A DNA stretch of 64,000 nt from Candidatus Terraquivivens ruidianensis. GTDB lineage: Archaea > Thermoproteota > Nitrososphaeria_A > Caldarchaeales > Wolframiiraptoraceae. Position numbers and translations under genes: made by a program. The stretch spans positions 248,001 through 312,000 of the forward strand of contig JALNLA010000001.1 of the NCBI GenBank assembly GCA_023267975.1. Reading direction: 5' to 3'. Positions 30,682 to 38,066 of the stretch are shown here, piece by piece. Position 1 is the stretch's first letter; each line of letters starts with the position of its first letter. The notes beneath the pieces were generated by a model, which was not told the origin of the DNA, searched no databases, and saw nothing but the letters and a program-made list of their open reading frames with translations.

Positions 30682-31674
30682 TTAATCTTTCTCCTCATCC
30701 TTTCTTCGTATGTATTCTCTAACGCCGCCCAAAAACAACGTAGCTATTCCACCTATCACAAGAAGATAGGTCGTCTGGACAACGTGAACGACTATGCCGG
30801 ACGATATCGCTTGCGCCTGACCCAAGCCTAAGACCGTGAACACTCCGACCCATACCAACTCAAAAGTGCCGATGTTGCCCGGTGGAGCTGGAATTATGGC
30901 AGATAGAGCAACGGCCGTGCTTCCTACCATGATGGCCAGTAAAGGTAGTTGCAAACCCGTGGATGCGAAGAGCACCACCAAAGAGTATATATTGAATAAC
31001 GTTATCATAAGAGTCCACAGGTGAAATTTTACACTCTTTATGCATGCGGTCGACTGTTCTAAGCCACTGACAATAGATTCAATAGCTTTGGTGAACCTAT
31101 TCTGTACGCTTGAGGGTAATATACGTCCTACCATTCCGTTAAACAGCCTTAAAGCGAACGTACCTCTTTTGAGCAGTATAAGCAATATGGCGACGATAAC
31201 GATTAAGCCTATACCAGAGACAAGCACGAGTGTTTTAATAGGCTCCGCTTGGACAAGCCCGCCGATTATGGCTGCCAGCAAACCTAGTGCCACCAACAGA
31301 TAAGCTAGGTCAAACACACGTTCAACGACTACGGTTGCGAATACTGGCATGAACCCTACTTTGCTCTTTTTCGAAACGGCAACAGCCCTTGCTATCTCCC
31401 CGAGCCTCACAGGAAAGATTACGTTAACAAAGTATCCCATGCCCGTCGCGGTCAGCGTAAGCGTAAGGCCAGGGTCCTTTAACATGGATAAAAGCATCCT
31501 CCATCTGAATGCCCTAGAAATGAAGTATAGCAAGAGTAGAACGAAGCTGAGCGTCAGATGACCTAAGCTCAGGCGTGTAAATGTTTCAACCAGAGCCTCA
31601 AAGCTTATGTAATATGCCATAGCCAAGAATACGGCGATGCCAACGAGCAACAACATCAAAAAACGTAAACGCAT
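30682..31674 (-). CDS. LPG synthase TM/UPF0104 family membrane protein
   Basis: A 330-residue integral membrane protein with about eight helices. Recognisable features are the basic SRAFRWRMLL after helix 2, the segment NVIFPVRLGEIARAVAVS and FATVVVERVFDLAYLL. These mark the transmembrane family of lysylphosphatidylglycerol synthase (UPF0104), which also includes archaeal AglD-type C-terminal domains and flippase-like proteins. Members often stand in glycan gene clusters, and a lipid-handling role fits, but no activity can be assigned. It is divergent from the ribophorin-like gene. Confidence 0.82.
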   Translation of the reverse strand: MRLRFLMLLLVGIAVFLAMAYYISFEALVETFTRLSLGHLTLSFVLLLLYFISRAFRWRMLLSMLKDPGLTLTLTATGMGYFVNVIFPVRLGEIARAVAVSKKSKVGFMPVFATVVVERVFDLAYLLVALGLLAAIIGGLVQAEPIKTLVLVSGIGLIVIVAILLILLKRGTFALRLFNGMVGRILPSSVQNRFTKAIESIVSGLEQSTACIKSVKFHLWTLMITLFNIYSLVVLFASTGLQLPLLAIMVGSTAVALSAIIPAPPGNIGTFELVWVGVFTVLGLGQAQAISSGIVVHVVQTTYLLVIGGIATLFLGGVREYIRRKDEEKD

Positions 31675-31764: not shown

Positions 31765-33399
31765 TTGGCCTTGAAGAAGCTGGTAACCATCACAATCCTT
31801 GTTATACTCGTCTGTACAGTACTAGCACAATTCGCCGTTGTATCCTCCGAAGGAGAGAGCTATGAAGTGGTCAGGGGTGTTGAGGTAAAGGATTGTGGGT
31901 TAATGTACATCTCAGACAGTCTATACGTCGAGCCAGGCAGGACTATAAAGGTCGGGTTTGACATAGCCTTGAAGGATAAGCTCGTAGCATTTTATGCGGA
32001 ACAAGCTACGATCGAGACAAGATACGTGGAGGAGGAGTCACCACCATCTCTCTTCTTCATAGAGATGAGGAACGTCGGCGAGCAAACCGTAAGGGCGAAC
32101 CTGGTAACGGTTTTCAAGGGTTTGGTAACGGAGGAGGATTCTAAGACCTTCGTGGCAAACGTACCTATGTTACCCGTAATCAAGAAGACGGTAGCATCTT
32201 TTTACATGGTGGTACGCTTTCCGAGCGGAAGCGAGGTAGAGCTTCCAGAGAGACCGGGCTTTAACTACACTACTGCGATGGATGGAGTGTTCACGGAGGC
32301 CAAGGACATAGACCTGCTTTTACCCACAAGTGTTTCTGTGAGGTTTATGAACGACAAGGTTTCAATAGTGTCCGTCGAGAAAGCCGACGTTACTGTATTC
32401 GTCGGAAACCCAAGACAGGTGTCCTTCTTCCTCAAGATAGTTAACCACGGCAAATCGTCTATAAACGAAGTCAAGTTGTTGCTGCCAACGAATGCAACTT
32501 TACTTAACGTTAAAGATAGCCTTGGGGCGTTGTCGAGCAGCTACGTGCGGGAAACTGGTAGTCTGGTTGTCAAGACTAGATGGGATGTTAAGAGTGGTGA
32601 GAAGGTGTCCTTCACGGTCGAGTATCTCGAACCCTACGCCCACGAATCCGGATACACATACGTGCTGAGCTATCCATCTCTACTGGATACCGTATACGGA
32701 AGATATTCTCTAAAAGTTATTCTATCACCCGGCTACGATTTCAAAGGTTCATCACCAGAGCCCGAAGAACTCGTTAGGGATCAAAGCGGTGCTACGATGC
32801 TTAGCTACGTCAGCGGAAGCGTAGCAACCCTTCAACCAAAAACCGCTATAAGCATCAGTTATATTGCGGGTGTGAGCATTATGCCGTACCTTCCGTACCT
32901 GTGGATAGCGACTTTTGGTGTACTCTTGACGACGGCCGTTACCTATAGACTTTCCCGCAGACCTAAAGCACCCATGCTACCAGAAGAGGTCAAAGAAGCC
33001 ATCAAGACAGTGACCTCTAAGGTGTTTGAAGTGGTAAAGGCTTGCGAGAGGTTGGCCTCGTCGATTCCGCTGGACAAGAAATCGATATCCAGATGGTCGA
33101 GGAGCGCTTATGAAAGTGAGCTTACTACCGTCAAGAGGGACGTTGATAGGATCAGCGCGTTAAAGAAGAGGCTTGGAGGTTTTCCAGAGATTATGGCAAA
33201 GCTCGGCCCCCTCGAGACGCAAATCTCTGAACTTGTGGGCATCATGACAGCACTCAGTAGGACTATCGAAGACTTTAGGCTGGGAAGGATAGGAAAGGCC
33301 ACCTACGACAGAATAACAAAGGAATACGCAAAGGACATTTCATCGCTTACATCCAGAATAAGGGAGACGACAAGGGAGATAGAAACGTCTTTAAGATAA
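31765..33399 (+). CDS. Ribophorin I (OST1)-like type I membrane protein
   Basis: A 544-residue protein. A signal peptide (residues 1-28, LVTITILVILVCTVLAQFAVVSS) precedes a beta-rich outer part of about 345 residues, one membrane helix (about 374-395) and a basic coiled-coil tail of some 150 residues. Eukaryotic ribophorin I has this order with almost these lengths. Local likeness is seen before the helix (YSLKVILSPGYDFKGSSPEP) and in the tail (KLGPLETQISELV, then RLGRIGKATYDRI), where human ribophorin I has similar spacing. The gene lies alone on the plus strand in the glycan island, with AglH-like and flippase-like genes close by. A role as an oligosaccharyltransferase partner is inference. 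The start is TTG; a second TTG lies two codons later. Confidence 0.6.
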   Translation: MALKKLVTITILVILVCTVLAQFAVVSSEGESYEVVRGVEVKDCGLMYISDSLYVEPGRTIKVGFDIALKDKLVAFYAEQATIETRYVEEESPPSLFFIEMRNVGEQTVRANLVTVFKGLVTEEDSKTFVANVPMLPVIKKTVASFYMVVRFPSGSEVELPERPGFNYTTAMDGVFTEAKDIDLLLPTSVSVRFMNDKVSIVSVEKADVTVFVGNPRQVSFFLKIVNHGKSSINEVKLLLPTNATLLNVKDSLGALSSSYVRETGSLVVKTRWDVKSGEKVSFTVEYLEPYAHESGYTYVLSYPSLLDTVYGRYSLKVILSPGYDFKGSSPEPEELVRDQSGATMLSYVSGSVATLQPKTAISISYIAGVSIMPYLPYLWIATFGVLLTTAVTYRLSRRPKAPMLPEEVKEAIKTVTSKVFEVVKACERLASSIPLDKKSISRWSRSAYESELTTVKRDVDRISALKKRLGGFPEIMAKLGPLETQISELVGIMTALSRTIEDFRLGRIGKATYDRITKEYAKDISSLTSRIRETTREIETSLR

Positions 33400-33402
33400 C
33401 CG

Positions 33403-34473
33403 CTACACGCCTCTTCCAGACGCTACGTTCTCCAACCACCCGGCCACAACCTTTGCAGGGTTGACCATCCTCCGCTTCAGCCGGTTCGCAAGCCTCGTCT
33501 GAAATTTTCTAGCATCATCGGCACGTTCTAGTATGTTTAAGGCCTTTTTCAGCGCATCCTGCCAACTCCTAAAATGACTGAGAGCGCCGATACCTACAAG
33601 GTAACGGTGGACTGCTGGAAGCCTTCCTGGATATGCTGACATCGTAGGCACACCCATCAGAACGGCCTCTTGCGTCATCGTTCCGCCGCCACCGATGAAA
33701 AGCGATGCATAGTATAGAATGCTGTGGTCCGATACTGGTTTATCAAGTATAAGGGCACCCTTTCCTAACTTTTTCAACTGCGTTGTCTGCTCACCGTACC
33801 TTGCCAACACGACAAGCTTAACGCCACTAAGGTTTGAGGTCAATTTCTCCGCAAGCTTCGTTACGTATTCTGTGTTGACTCCTATAAGGTAGGATGCCTG
33901 CGTCTCGGGCATTCTGAAGAGGACGTAGTTAAACTCGTCAAGGCCAAGCTCATCCAGTATTCGCCTATTGGGCTTGAAACCGTCCAGCCAAGCCATAGGG
34001 TCTAACGCTCTGTATTTTAATACACTACGGCAGTTTATTCCATACTTTACCCACTCATCCTTTGAAATTATCCACGGTGTGAAGACGTAATTTGAAAGCG
34101 GGACACAGTATCTATTAACCGGAGACTCTGGCGTATCCGAGAGAAGAATATGGGGGATGTGTAAACCGAAGGAAATTCTCGTCATGTCCAGCGAGCCACT
34201 TGACACACAGGCATCGGGCGAATGTTTCTCGATAACGTCAACGAGCTCCATGGTCCTACTGACGCTCGCCTTAAGCTTTCCAAGCAGAGATCCGCCGCCG
34301 AATTCTCCGACGACGATTATATCCTTGCGACCAACATCTTCCAGTATTGGTATAATTTGTTCGTATCTTCTAGATGTAAGCAACACTTCTAAACCGCGCT
34401 CTCTCAACTCCTTCTCGATTGACGTGAAAAACCAAAATTGTTTAGGCGTCAGTATATCAAACCATACCTTCAA
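33403..34473 (-). CDS. DUF354 family protein (GT-B fold)
   Basis: A 356-residue soluble protein with the DUF354 start MKVWFDILTPKQFWFF and the segments SSGSLDMTRISFGLHIPHI, YRALDPMAWLDGF and IGGGGTMTQEAVLMGVPT. The fold is of the GT-B/UDP-GlcNAc 2-epimerase type, and GGGGTMTQEA corresponds to the nucleotide-sugar-binding loop. Family function is not established. Next to the AglH-like gene it could be the enzyme adding the second sugar to the lipid carrier, as Alg13/14 does in eukaryotes; this is inference. It converges with the ribophorin-like gene, with 3 bases between stops. Confidence 0.85.
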   Translation of the reverse strand: MKVWFDILTPKQFWFFTSIEKELRERGLEVLLTSRRYEQIIPILEDVGRKDIIVVGEFGGGSLLGKLKASVSRTMELVDVIEKHSPDACVSSGSLDMTRISFGLHIPHILLSDTPESPVNRYCVPLSNYVFTPWIISKDEWVKYGINCRSVLKYRALDPMAWLDGFKPNRRILDELGLDEFNYVLFRMPETQASYLIGVNTEYVTKLAEKLTSNLSGVKLVVLARYGEQTTQLKKLGKGALILDKPVSDHSILYYASLFIGGGGTMTQEAVLMGVPTMSAYPGRLPAVHRYLVGIGALSHFRSWQDALKKALNILERADDARKFQTRLANRLKRRMVNPAKVVAGWLENVASGRGV

Positions 34474-34578
34474 GGATTTTCACCCCTCAACCATCCACAA
34501 ACACGAGAGATGTGAGTAATAACGCTTATCTGAGAAGAAGGAAAAAATTAATAGGTTAGGGACGGAGTGAGCGATAAC

Positions 34579-35565
34579 ATGTCTGCTATACCGTTACTGT
34601 TTGCCTCGTTTATCTTATCTGCTCTCTTATCTTACGCATCAGTACCTTTCATAAAGAGTTTGGCCAGAAAGGCTAAACTATTCGGCGTTGACGTTCACAA
34701 AAGCTGGAGACCGTTAGTCCCGAAGATAGGTGGTATATCGGTTTTCATCGGCGTTACCGTATCTGTTTTGGTAACGTCTTTTTTGTTTAACATGGTTGAC
34801 AACAGGGTTTTGGCGTTCATCATTTCGACGGAGCTAGCAGCTATCGTAGGCCTATGGGAGGATTTTAGGGAGCTGAACCCAGTTTTAAAGCCAGTGTTGT
34901 TGGCACTAGCTGGGCTCCCGATAGTTTTTATGGGTGCTTACTATCCGTATCCAAATTTGCCATTCGTCGGTAAAAGAATGCTGACGATACTTTATCCAAT
35001 ACTCGTGCCCATAGCTTTCACGATAGTTACTAACGCCGTCAACAGCATGGACGTACTTAACGGTTCTATGACGTTCACGTCAATCGTAGCCGTGTTCACG
35101 ATTTTTTTGATAGCCCTAACAAACGGTAATGCCCCTCCAGCGTATCTGTGTACTGCGCTCCTTGGCTCCTTAATCGTCTTCGCATACTATAACAAGTATC
35201 CGGCGAGGCTCTTTTCTGGAAACGTCGGCAGTTTGTACGTCGGTGCCAGCTTAACATCTATAGCAATAATTGGTAGCATGGAGATAGCGCTGCTGATAAC
35301 TATACTCCCCCAAATAATGAACGAGTTTCATATAATATACTCTATGAAAGGTTTTAGGTCTGCAAAGAATTTATCCGAGAGACCCGTTTTAGTAGAAAAT
35401 GATATGTTATCTGCAAACCCGTCTAAGAAAGCTCCTATAACGCTCGTAAGGATGCTTACGTCTAGATGTAGCTTATCCGAGAAGGAGGTGGTGAAGATGC
35501 TTGTCATGATCTCAATCGTTTCTGCAACCCTCGCCCTCATTACAGAGTTTCTTATCATAAAGTGA
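34579..35565 (+). CDS. DPAGT1/AglH-like polyprenyl-phosphate sugar-1-phosphate transferase
   Basis: About 328 residues and ten membrane helices, of the PNPT family (UDP-GlcNAc:dolichyl-phosphate GlcNAc-1-phosphate transferase, MraY, WecA). Visible hallmarks: HKSWRPLVPKIGGISVF, GLWEDFRELNPVLKPVL, NAVNSMDVLNG and ARLFSGNVGSLYVGA. It would start glycan assembly on the lipid carrier. Two expected aspartates differ: the DD of the first loop is ED, and the metal-binding GD before GSL is GN. An A/T box at 34545-34552 predicts transcription from about 34575, so I start at ATG 34579 rather than GTG 34567. Three small or unusual genes follow closely. Confidence 0.82.
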   Translation: MSAIPLLFASFILSALLSYASVPFIKSLARKAKLFGVDVHKSWRPLVPKIGGISVFIGVTVSVLVTSFLFNMVDNRVLAFIISTELAAIVGLWEDFRELNPVLKPVLLALAGLPIVFMGAYYPYPNLPFVGKRMLTILYPILVPIAFTIVTNAVNSMDVLNGSMTFTSIVAVFTIFLIALTNGNAPPAYLCTALLGSLIVFAYYNKYPARLFSGNVGSLYVGASLTSIAIIGSMEIALLITILPQIMNEFHIIYSMKGFRSAKNLSERPVLVENDMLSANPSKKAPITLVRMLTSRCSLSEKEVVKMLVMISIVSATLALITEFLIIK

Positions 35566-35566
35566 G

Positions 35567-35866
35567 ATGAGTAGTATGTCAAATGTAAAGGATAAGTTTC
35601 TCACAATATCCATGATAGCTATCCTCCTACTCATAGTGTGGGGGATGTTCCTCGGTGTTCTTTATCTGATGTCAGTGTTCGTGATTCCGTTGACTACTTC
35701 ACCTAATGAGCCTCTACTGCTTTCGGTATACAGAATCGGGACGGCTCTCTTGATTCTCGTGGTGTGGATTATCGGCTGGCACAGGCTTGCGACGTTCTGG
35801 CTGTATAGGGTTTTGAAAAAGGGTGGTGGACATGAGGGGTCCGAGAGAAACGATAGTCCAAGTTGA
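35567..35866 (+). CDS. Small two-helix membrane protein
   Basis: A 99-residue protein with two hydrophobic helices (FLTISMIAILLLIVWGMFLGVLYLM and IGTALLILVVWIIGWHRLATFWL) joined by a short outer loop and followed by a charged, histidine-containing tail. No known family is recognised. Its ATG comes one base after the stop of the AglH-like gene, and its end overlaps the next gene by about 35 bases, so it is part of that transcript. It may be an accessory subunit of the phosphotransferase; this rests only on position. Confidence 0.65.
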   Translation: MSSMSNVKDKFLTISMIAILLLIVWGMFLGVLYLMSVFVIPLTTSPNEPLLLSVYRIGTALLILVVWIIGWHRLATFWLYRVLKKGGGHEGSERNDSPS

Positions 35867-36998
35867 CGTCTCTATCACTGGTATCCCAACATCGGTCAAG
35901 ATAGCTAGTGCGGGCTACAAGGTGATCTTTGCAACGACCAGCGACTACGTTGCAGCCCAGCTAAAGGAGTATAGGTCATCGCTACATAGGGTACCTAAGT
36001 CGCTCTTCACAAAACTTTTGTTAGGAGGAATGCTCATGGCAACAACTGACATAGAAAGCGCCTTAGCCTCATCGAAGACTATACTCGTCACAAGCCATGC
36101 ATTAGGAATTGAAGAAGAAATGGAAGCCGTGATGAATCTCTTCAAACAGATGGCGCCTCACATAACCCCAAACTCGCTGTTGGTATACGGCGGGCTGGCT
36201 CCTCCAGGGACAATGGAAGGAGTGATAAACATACTTGAGAGATACTCACGACTCGATACAGAAAAAGACATCAGCGTGGCTCTGATTACACCTTTTGAAG
36301 CCCAAGCCGAAACATACATTGTTTGCTCACCTAAATCTGAGGCGGCCAACATAGTAAAGAAATTCATGTCTACCTTCGTTCCGTCGAACATGATAAAATT
36401 GTATAGAACGTTTAAGGAGGCCGAGACGGCTAACTTGTTACTCATAGCAAAGCAGGCAATCATGAAGGCACTGTCTTCGTATGCTTTGTTGCTGTTTAAA
36501 CAAATGGATGTGAATGTCGAAGATGCACTGAGCCTCTCTGAATGTAAGGCGCCAACTGTAATAGAGGATGACCCAATCTCCCAGATGGTAATGAATTATC
36601 TAGTATCTGAGGAGAGGAGGTTACCGCAGAGGTTAATGCTCATGCGGAACATCATTCGAACAAAGATTGTATTGCTAAGGGCAATAACCACAAATCTTAG
36701 GCGAGAAGTCAAGTTGGCACTCCAGAGAAGCAAAGGTTTGACAGTTGCATGCGTATTTGAGCGCGAGTCTGATAAGGAGTTAGTGAGCACCATGCTACCA
36801 AAAAAAGGAGTCAAAGTCCACTTCTATAACATAGACGAGATTGAGCCAAAGGTCGAGGCTGGCGCAGAGAGAATAATCCCATTCAAGGTTAACTTAATAA
36901 TTTTGGCGGTACATCCCCAAAATATCTCGGAGCGTACGATATGTAGGCTGAAGGAAGAGACGAAACTCATAGACTTGGGCCGCATCATCTCCGTCTAG
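35832..36998 (+). CDS. Degenerate UDP-sugar dehydrogenase-like protein
   Basis: A 388-residue protein whose order of segments follows the WecC/Ugd dehydrogenases: a first strand then ITGIPTSVKIASAGYKVIFAT, KATT-like MATTDIESALASSKT, and PPGTMEGV in place of the usual (V)PGTT. Yet the glycine-rich NAD loop is lost (no GxGxxG), and the catalytic GGxCxPKD is absent: ECKAPTVIEDDP stands in that region. The C-terminal third is diverged. It is probably not a dehydrogenase. Position behind the AglH-like gene and before a Gfo/Idh/MocA gene suggests a binding or regulatory role in the same pathway. The ATG at 35832 follows GGGTGGTGG. Confidence 0.65.
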   Translation: MRGPRETIVQVDVSITGIPTSVKIASAGYKVIFATTSDYVAAQLKEYRSSLHRVPKSLFTKLLLGGMLMATTDIESALASSKTILVTSHALGIEEEMEAVMNLFKQMAPHITPNSLLVYGGLAPPGTMEGVINILERYSRLDTEKDISVALITPFEAQAETYIVCSPKSEAANIVKKFMSTFVPSNMIKLYRTFKEAETANLLLIAKQAIMKALSSYALLLFKQMDVNVEDALSLSECKAPTVIEDDPISQMVMNYLVSEERRLPQRLMLMRNIIRTKIVLLRAITTNLRREVKLALQRSKGLTVACVFERESDKELVSTMLPKKGVKVHFYNIDEIEPKVEAGAERIIPFKVNLIILAVHPQNISERTICRLKEETKLIDLGRIISV

Positions 36999-37088
36999 AT
37001 TGATTCCAAAATATAGAATGCTTTTTCTACTCTTCGAATGGATAACGCTTAAAAGGTAAACGTACAGGAGGTGGCTAGGTCAAAGGAT

Positions 37089-38066
37089 ATGCGGGAAATT
37101 ATTGTTGCAATAATCGGCGCAGGTTTTTGGGGCAAGAATCACGCAAGGGTACTCAAAGAGATGCCGGGTGTTAAAGTAACCCACGTATGCGATATAGATA
37201 TAAACAGGGCAAAGGAGCTGGCTTTAAGATACGGAATTCCCAAATACACGACCGACTACAAAGAAGCTTTATCCGATGATGTGGATGCGTTCATTGTGTG
37301 TACCCCATCGAACACCCATGCTGATATAGCTCTTACGCTCATAAGAGAGGATAAGCATGTGTTAATAGAGAAGCCTATGGCAACGACGATAAAGCAGGCC
37401 GAGGACATAGTCGCCGAGGCAGGGCATAGTAAGAGCACGGTGATGGTGGGTTTCATAGAAAGGTTCAATCCGGCAATCGGATTAGGAAAAGAGTTGATGG
37501 ACAAAGGTGAGATAGGTCCCATCATACTTTCTTACAGCAAGAGAATAGGTAGTTGGCCTGAGAGAATAGGCGACATAGGCGTCGTGAAGGATACGGCAAT
37601 ACACGATATAGACTTAGCAAGATACATCTTTAATACCGAACCAGTCAGCGTGTATGCCAAGGGAGGCTCTATAAGACATAAGCTCGAGGACCACGTTCAA
37701 GCCGTTTTATCGTTTGAGGGTGACAGGAGTGCGCTGATAGAGGCTAACTGGCTCACGCCCAGAAAGAAGCGTGAGATGCATGTAACTGGCGAGGAAGGTG
37801 TCATAAGCATACAGTTCCTTTCAAGGGAGGTTGTTGTGGAAAAAGCTGATAGCAGTAGGTCTCCTATGGTGAAGCAGGTCGAACCTTTAATGGTAGAGGT
37901 GCAGCATTTCATAGATTGCATTAGAAAGGGCGAGAGACCCCTGGTCGGTGAAGTTGAAGGACTCAAGGCCACGCTCATAGCAGATGCGATACTCGAATCC
38001 ATGAGGACAGGAAAGATTATTGACCTAGAAGAGTTCATGAAGAAAGAACTGACCATAACACTTTAG
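37089..38066 (+). CDS. Gfo/Idh/MocA family sugar dehydrogenase
   Basis: NAD(P)-dependent oxidoreductase of 325 residues. The N-terminal Rossmann loop is GAGFWGKNH, and EKPMAT carries the conserved lysine. The substrate domain has VGFIERFNPAI and DTAIHDIDLARYIF. This subgroup is often annotated as UDP-N-acetylglucosamine 3-dehydrogenase, acting in the synthesis of amino-sugar or uronic-acid residues of glycans. An A/T-rich box near 37048-37058 suggests its own promoter; the ATG at 37089 is preferred, with a GTG six codons upstream (37071) possible. It closes the glycan island. Confidence 0.87.
   Translation: MREIIVAIIGAGFWGKNHARVLKEMPGVKVTHVCDIDINRAKELALRYGIPKYTTDYKEALSDDVDAFIVCTPSNTHADIALTLIREDKHVLIEKPMATTIKQAEDIVAEAGHSKSTVMVGFIERFNPAIGLGKELMDKGEIGPIILSYSKRIGSWPERIGDIGVVKDTAIHDIDLARYIFNTEPVSVYAKGGSIRHKLEDHVQAVLSFEGDRSALIEANWLTPRKKREMHVTGEEGVISIQFLSREVVVEKADSSRSPMVKQVEPLMVEVQHFIDCIRKGERPLVGEVEGLKATLIADAILESMRTGKIIDLEEFMKKELTITL

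Follow-up and report, generated by a model that had tools for sequence, protein, structure and literature searches.

In archaea, N-glycosylation is usually ascribed to AglB alone, and further subunits of the oligosaccharyltransferase (OST) are seen as a trait of Asgard archaea and eukaryotes. A 2016 study in Biology Direct came upon no promising homologues in archaea (PMC4973528). In 2022, a paper in eLife stated that the archaeal OST is a single subunit and noted Asgard homologues (PMC8993221), and a 2023 Nature paper referred to earlier reports of Ost1 and Ost3 in Asgard archaea (PMC10307638). A single clause of a 2024 paper in JBC places OST1 and OST3/6 in eukaryotes, TACK and Asgard archaea; the same work demonstrates ribosome binding by the MK-D1 and human OST1 tails in pull-downs (PMC11417166). 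The gene described here lies in a window of 64,000 nucleotides (the whole stretch of DNA that was analysed) from Candidatus Terraquivivens ruidianensis, a hot-spring archaeon that is not a member of the Asgard group. Its product is a member of the known OST1 (ribophorin I) family, whose range turns out to be unexpectedly wide and little described.

The open reading frame at 31765-33399 (+) is a real gene that encodes 544 residues. Orthologues with open frames were present in 41 of the 61 genomes searched, its own genome included. Identities were 68-75% to members of the genus and dropped to about 20-27% over the order as a whole. The frame starts with TTG, and a second in-frame TTG follows at 31771. 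The genome had been called TACK-like from the letters alone, which agrees with its genus: this includes Candidatus Terraquivivens tikiterensis (Aigarchaeota-type; a 75% match), and NCBI assigns it to Candidatus Wolframiiraptoraceae, Nitrososphaerota. In the AlphaFold2 model, secondary structure assignment by DSSP gave a signal peptide helix at residues 2-26 (31768-31842), with a hydrophobic N-terminus in the homologues as well, a beta-rich ectodomain at residues 33-368 (31861-32868) and a single membrane helix at residues 373-397 (32881-32955). The remainder, residues 407-543 (32983-33393), is predicted to form a basic, cytosolic, putatively ribosome-facing four-helix bundle (helices 407-432, 446-469, 474-505 and 511-543). 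This is the order of parts in OST1: signal peptide, outer beta domains, one membrane helix and a C-terminal cytosolic bundle. The sequence-only reading had proposed a signal peptide, a beta-rich outer part of about 345 residues and one membrane helix at 374-395, all of which reappear in the model. It had also proposed a basic coiled-coil tail; the basic character held, with a net charge of +8 (46 of the 46 tails checked were net basic, and the ectodomains of family members are mostly net acidic), while the simple coiled coil gave way to the predicted bundle.

The likeness to ribophorin I was then sought at the sequence level. The protein scored 27.1 bits against the Pfam model PF04597 (Ribophorin_I), above the curated cut-off of 25, over residues 227-323 (32443-32733). 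Scores reached 42 bits among relatives in the genus and 50.8 bits for the best member in the phylum, and the model matched 44 of 300 phylum genomes and none of 14 control genomes. A search of the PDB with the single protein sequence returned nothing significant, and a profile was therefore needed. We searched two archaeal family profiles, one of 35 rows (A1) and one of 46 rows (A2), against all PDB sequences. With the 35-row profile, human RPN1 ranked first (E = 1.9e-13), and the cytosolic domain of MK-D1 OST1 came next. With the 46-row profile, human RPN1 again ranked first (E = 6.7e-33), and the MK-D1 OST1 tail (8whn_A, E = 6.5e-14) and yeast Ost1 (E = 7.2e-12) were also reached. The likeness to eukaryotic OST1 at this level covers the second ectodomain half, the membrane region and the tail, which aligns with human RPN1 through its last residue. 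The N-terminal ectodomain half gave a weak profile match (10.3 bits) and resembles OST1 by fold only. Two local likenesses named in the sequence-only reading (KLGPLETQISELV; RLGRIGKATYDRI) proved well placed, since the HMM alignment pairs those spots with 'KLDAQVKELV' and 'AGKLKKDTYIEN' of human RPN1. NCBIfam held no model naming the protein.

The predicted fold pointed the same way. The AlphaFold2 model, built on the family alignment, had a mean pLDDT of 84.7 and was compared by Foldseek with 350,542 solved chains. Ranks 1-8 were all OST1 chains from solved OST complexes, with those of human and yeast OST as the nearest folds (E = 5.9e-26 to 5.2e-15), and the next matches were M1 aminopeptidase domains at 1.1e-5. 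Whole-chain TM-scores were modest (about 0.5) and the rmsd was high, which may be what is expected if the domains hinge. A separate model of a member from family f29, the large group that diverges most, with 14% identity to the window protein, also found OST1 first (E = 2.9e-21 to 6.5e-15), and its next fold match stood at 7e-6. An identity as a DUF11 protein or adhesin was tried and rejected: DUF11 scored 14.2 bits against a cut-off of 24.6, and the predicted fold is that of OST1. Thus the Pfam cut-off, the profile searches and the predicted fold agree on the ribophorin I-like character proposed earlier, and computation shows family membership together with the predicted layout and fold of OST1.

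By homology, we consider it probable that the protein is an archaeal OST1, that is, a non-catalytic subunit beside AglB. The beta domain would face outward from the cell, anchored by the single membrane helix, with the basic four-helix bundle in the cytosol. Placed next to the catalytic AglB, the ectodomain would present or hold the nascent substrate near the active site. The tail would dock translating ribosomes and so couple N-glycosylation to secretion through SecY; this step draws on the ribosome pull-downs with the homologous MK-D1 tail (PMC11417166), and the ribosome-related feature computed for the tail of the window protein is its basic charge only. The catalytic partner was looked for elsewhere in the genome and found: an AglB with a PF02516 score of 139 bits at G000:C2:206289, carrying the WWDYGYW motif (L161:8176-10263), with a tandem sequon region also present. 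It lies on another contig and is unlinked to the OST1 gene. AglB occurs in 270 of the 300 phylum genomes, and because it is nearly universal, its co-occurrence with OST1 is weak evidence; among the listed genomes that lack a PF02516 match, three belong to the 140 OST1-positive ones, two of these three being incomplete. A possible Ost3/6 (a PF04756 match) proved to be an ordinary thioredoxin. Models of Ost4 and Ost5 gave no match in this genome and were equally silent in every control. Directly after aglB, at L161:10298-11179, lies a gene for a TlpA/ResA-like thioredoxin that is anchored in the membrane and bears a CKYC motif; it could take the part of Ost3/6 with a different arrangement of domains.

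Around the OST1 gene, several genes relate to lipid-linked sugars. A flippase-like membrane protein (30682-31674, -; PF03706, TIGR00374) diverges from it, and a DUF354 gene (33403-34473, -; PF04007) converges on it, as the sequence-only reading had named both; being flanked in this way, OST1 forms no operon with either, and operon linkage with glycan genes was rejected. Beyond DUF354 come a polyprenyl-phosphate sugar-1-phosphate transferase-like gene (GPT-like, of the MraY/WecA/Alg7 superfamily; 34567-35565, +; PF00953), a gene with a UDP-glucose/GDP-mannose dehydrogenase NAD domain-like product (35823-36998, +) and a GFO/IDH/MocA oxidoreductase (37071-38066, +), the last two in the same syntenic block as OST1. 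The GPT-like neighbour is likewise confirmed; MraY outscored human DPAGT1 in a single-sequence search, so that the label 'AglH-like' given from the letters is plausible only. The block of OST1, DUF354 (-), GPT-like (+) and, further on, GFO/IDH/MocA is shared by 14 of the order's 18 loci, drawn from three families, and what lies upstream varies. Beyond the order, the neighbours of OST1 are mostly housekeeping genes. A glycan gene island, as it had been called, therefore exists within the order and dissolves outside it. The DUF354/GPT-like pair together with GFO/IDH/MocA, kept across three families, may carry out the initial reactions in building lipid-linked glycans.

These neighbourhoods and partners also bear on a different function. 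The OST1 homologue might work apart from AglB, for example by tethering the ribosome or SecY or by assisting the assembly of surface proteins, and its tie to N-glycosylation would then be secondary, made in the line of eukaryotes and Asgard archaea. The unlinked aglB, the housekeeping neighbours outside the order and the many AglB-bearing members of the phylum without a confident OST1 would suit such a protein. Against it, OST1 keeps company with lipid-linked sugar genes within the order, and a missing OST1 goes along with an AglB more distant from the STT3 consensus. Across families, the AglB scores against the STT3 model were lower in those without OST1 (family medians of 13 vs 40.5 in -log10 E, P about 1e-5), and the same was seen inside the OST1-variable family f33; phylogeny confounds the comparison, and no such pattern is seen in family f8. 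Divergence of this kind would possibly fit functional coupling or linked loss. We consider the separate function rather unlikely, and a subunit role beside AglB remains our preferred reading.

The range of the family was determined with the 46-row profile in 300 genomes of the phylum. Matches at E <= 0.001 occurred in 195 genomes, and their scores fell into two groups, with nothing between 6e-13 and 6e-9. We count the stronger group as confident homologues; it comprised 140 of the 300 genomes and 39 of the 55 family codes. Weak matches in other families (E of 1e-9 to 1e-3) were taken as coiled-coil noise and left out of the counts. Families with weak matches only include f6, f7, f13, f18, f21, f24 and others, with many complete single-contig genomes, and they appear to include well-known cultured Crenarchaeota and ammonia oxidisers. 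The complete members of the stronger group that we inspected all have a signal peptide and one membrane helix, and the tail measures about 130-155 residues except in f8. In a tree of 85 sequences, the family label changed 26 times, the least possible number, compared with a mean of 61.7 after shuffling; nearly every family stood together, and f1 fell into two parts. A tree that follows the genome families suggests mostly vertical descent, as for a long-resident gene. Placed beside earlier statements, the claim that such a subunit is wider than thought stands with respect to PMC8993221 and PMC10307638; it does not stand as wholly new, for occurrence in TACK archaea is already given in PMC11417166. 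In the open-licence literature searched, we found no account of how broad the distribution is, of the fold evidence, of a family without tails or of the synteny at order level.

Several variants of the protein were encountered. Most frames of family f8 span 416-478 residues. All 13 of its carriers lose the profile match near position 400-412, and in the two proteins measured the chain continues for only about 20-31 residues past the membrane helix. Tail-less loci of this family are L050, L131, L132, L064 and L074, and a separate tail ORF near OST1 was absent from the three loci checked. In f26/g57 (L128, L068), the N-terminal half is mostly without a profile match, and one ectodomain has a net charge of -43. 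Three g52 genomes have an OST1 frame with a single in-frame stop, namely G101:C137:4996-6735 (TGA), G254:C10:1138380-1140116 (TAA) and G205:C11:193697-195481 (TGA), and the frame of a fourth g52 genome has none; sequencing error, decay or something else may account for these stops. A second class of proteins, of about 535 residues, combines the second ectodomain part and membrane helix of OST1 with about 250 further residues and another membrane helix (L154:1535-3154, L155:5823-7442, L156:5490-7079, L157:5809-7398 and L158:4937-6526); a Pfam scan of three of them gave no match above the cut-off.

This distribution makes it highly improbable that the lineage acquired the gene recently from Asgard archaea or eukaryotes. 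Such an origin is suggested by the best-described relatives, which are Asgard and eukaryotic, and is opposed by the presence of OST1 in 140 genomes and 39 family codes of the phylum and by a tree, built within the phylum, that keeps to the families; an old transfer into a single deep ancestor would still fit such a tree. The idea that the protein comes from a different family of type I membrane proteins and has just a resemblance to OST1, being a DUF11-like or aminopeptidase-N-like beta-sandwich with a coiled-coil tail, is largely refuted and left with next to no chance: DUF11 does match the window protein weakly (E = 0.058), the fold search lists M1 aminopeptidase domains next (1e-5) and coiled-coil tails draw spurious matches, but the OST1 chains lead any other fold by about ten orders of magnitude, the match runs in sequence through ectodomain, membrane helix and tail, and both the ectodomain alone and the tail-less L131 pass PF04597.

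A broader reading seems to us evenly poised between right and wrong: a ribosome-linked OST of at least two parts, AglB and OST1, would be ancestral to Thermoproteota and would predate the Asgard/eukaryote line, with several later losses and one family that retained the ectodomain and lost the bundle. Losses in lineages resembling the commonly cultured Crenarchaeota and ammonia oxidisers would then account for the single-subunit picture of the archaeal OST. With a full-length OST1 in many Thermoproteota families, the origin of a multi-subunit OST coupled to ribosomes would lie well before eukaryogenesis. Such an OST could also be tested in simple systems, perhaps of two parts only, and the members that naturally lack the tail can be compared with the others to learn what the ribosome-facing bundle does.

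Among the known systems, human ribophorin I (RPN1; PDB 6s7o chain E and 8b6l chain O; PF04597) is both the best sequence-profile match and the best fold match. The two proteins share a signal peptide, a beta ectodomain, one membrane helix and a C-terminal four-helix cytosolic bundle, at about 15% identity and with lengths of 544 residues here and 607 in RPN1; the window's genome gave no evidence of the other subunits of the eukaryotic OST. The tail of OST1 from MK-D1 (Candidatus Prometheoarchaeum syntrophicum; cytosolic domain in PDB 8whn), matched by the family's tail profile at 6.5e-14, is a four-helix bundle with basic patches and demonstrated ribosome binding (PMC11417166). MK-D1 is an Asgard archaeon in which OST3/6 and TRAP subunits are also predicted, whereas only AglB and OST1 were found in the window's genome. 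Yeast Ost1 (476 residues; PDB 6c26 chain 1, 6ezn chain A) matches in ectodomain and membrane helix by profile and fold. It aligns only as far as the membrane helix and has no bundle, unlike the window protein; the bundle is thus absent from yeast Ost1 and from the tail-less archaeal family f8 alike. Finally, AglB is in the usual description a single-subunit archaeal OST, and the window's genome has such an AglB with its WWDYG motif. The occurrence of OST1 beside it suggests an enzyme of at least two parts.
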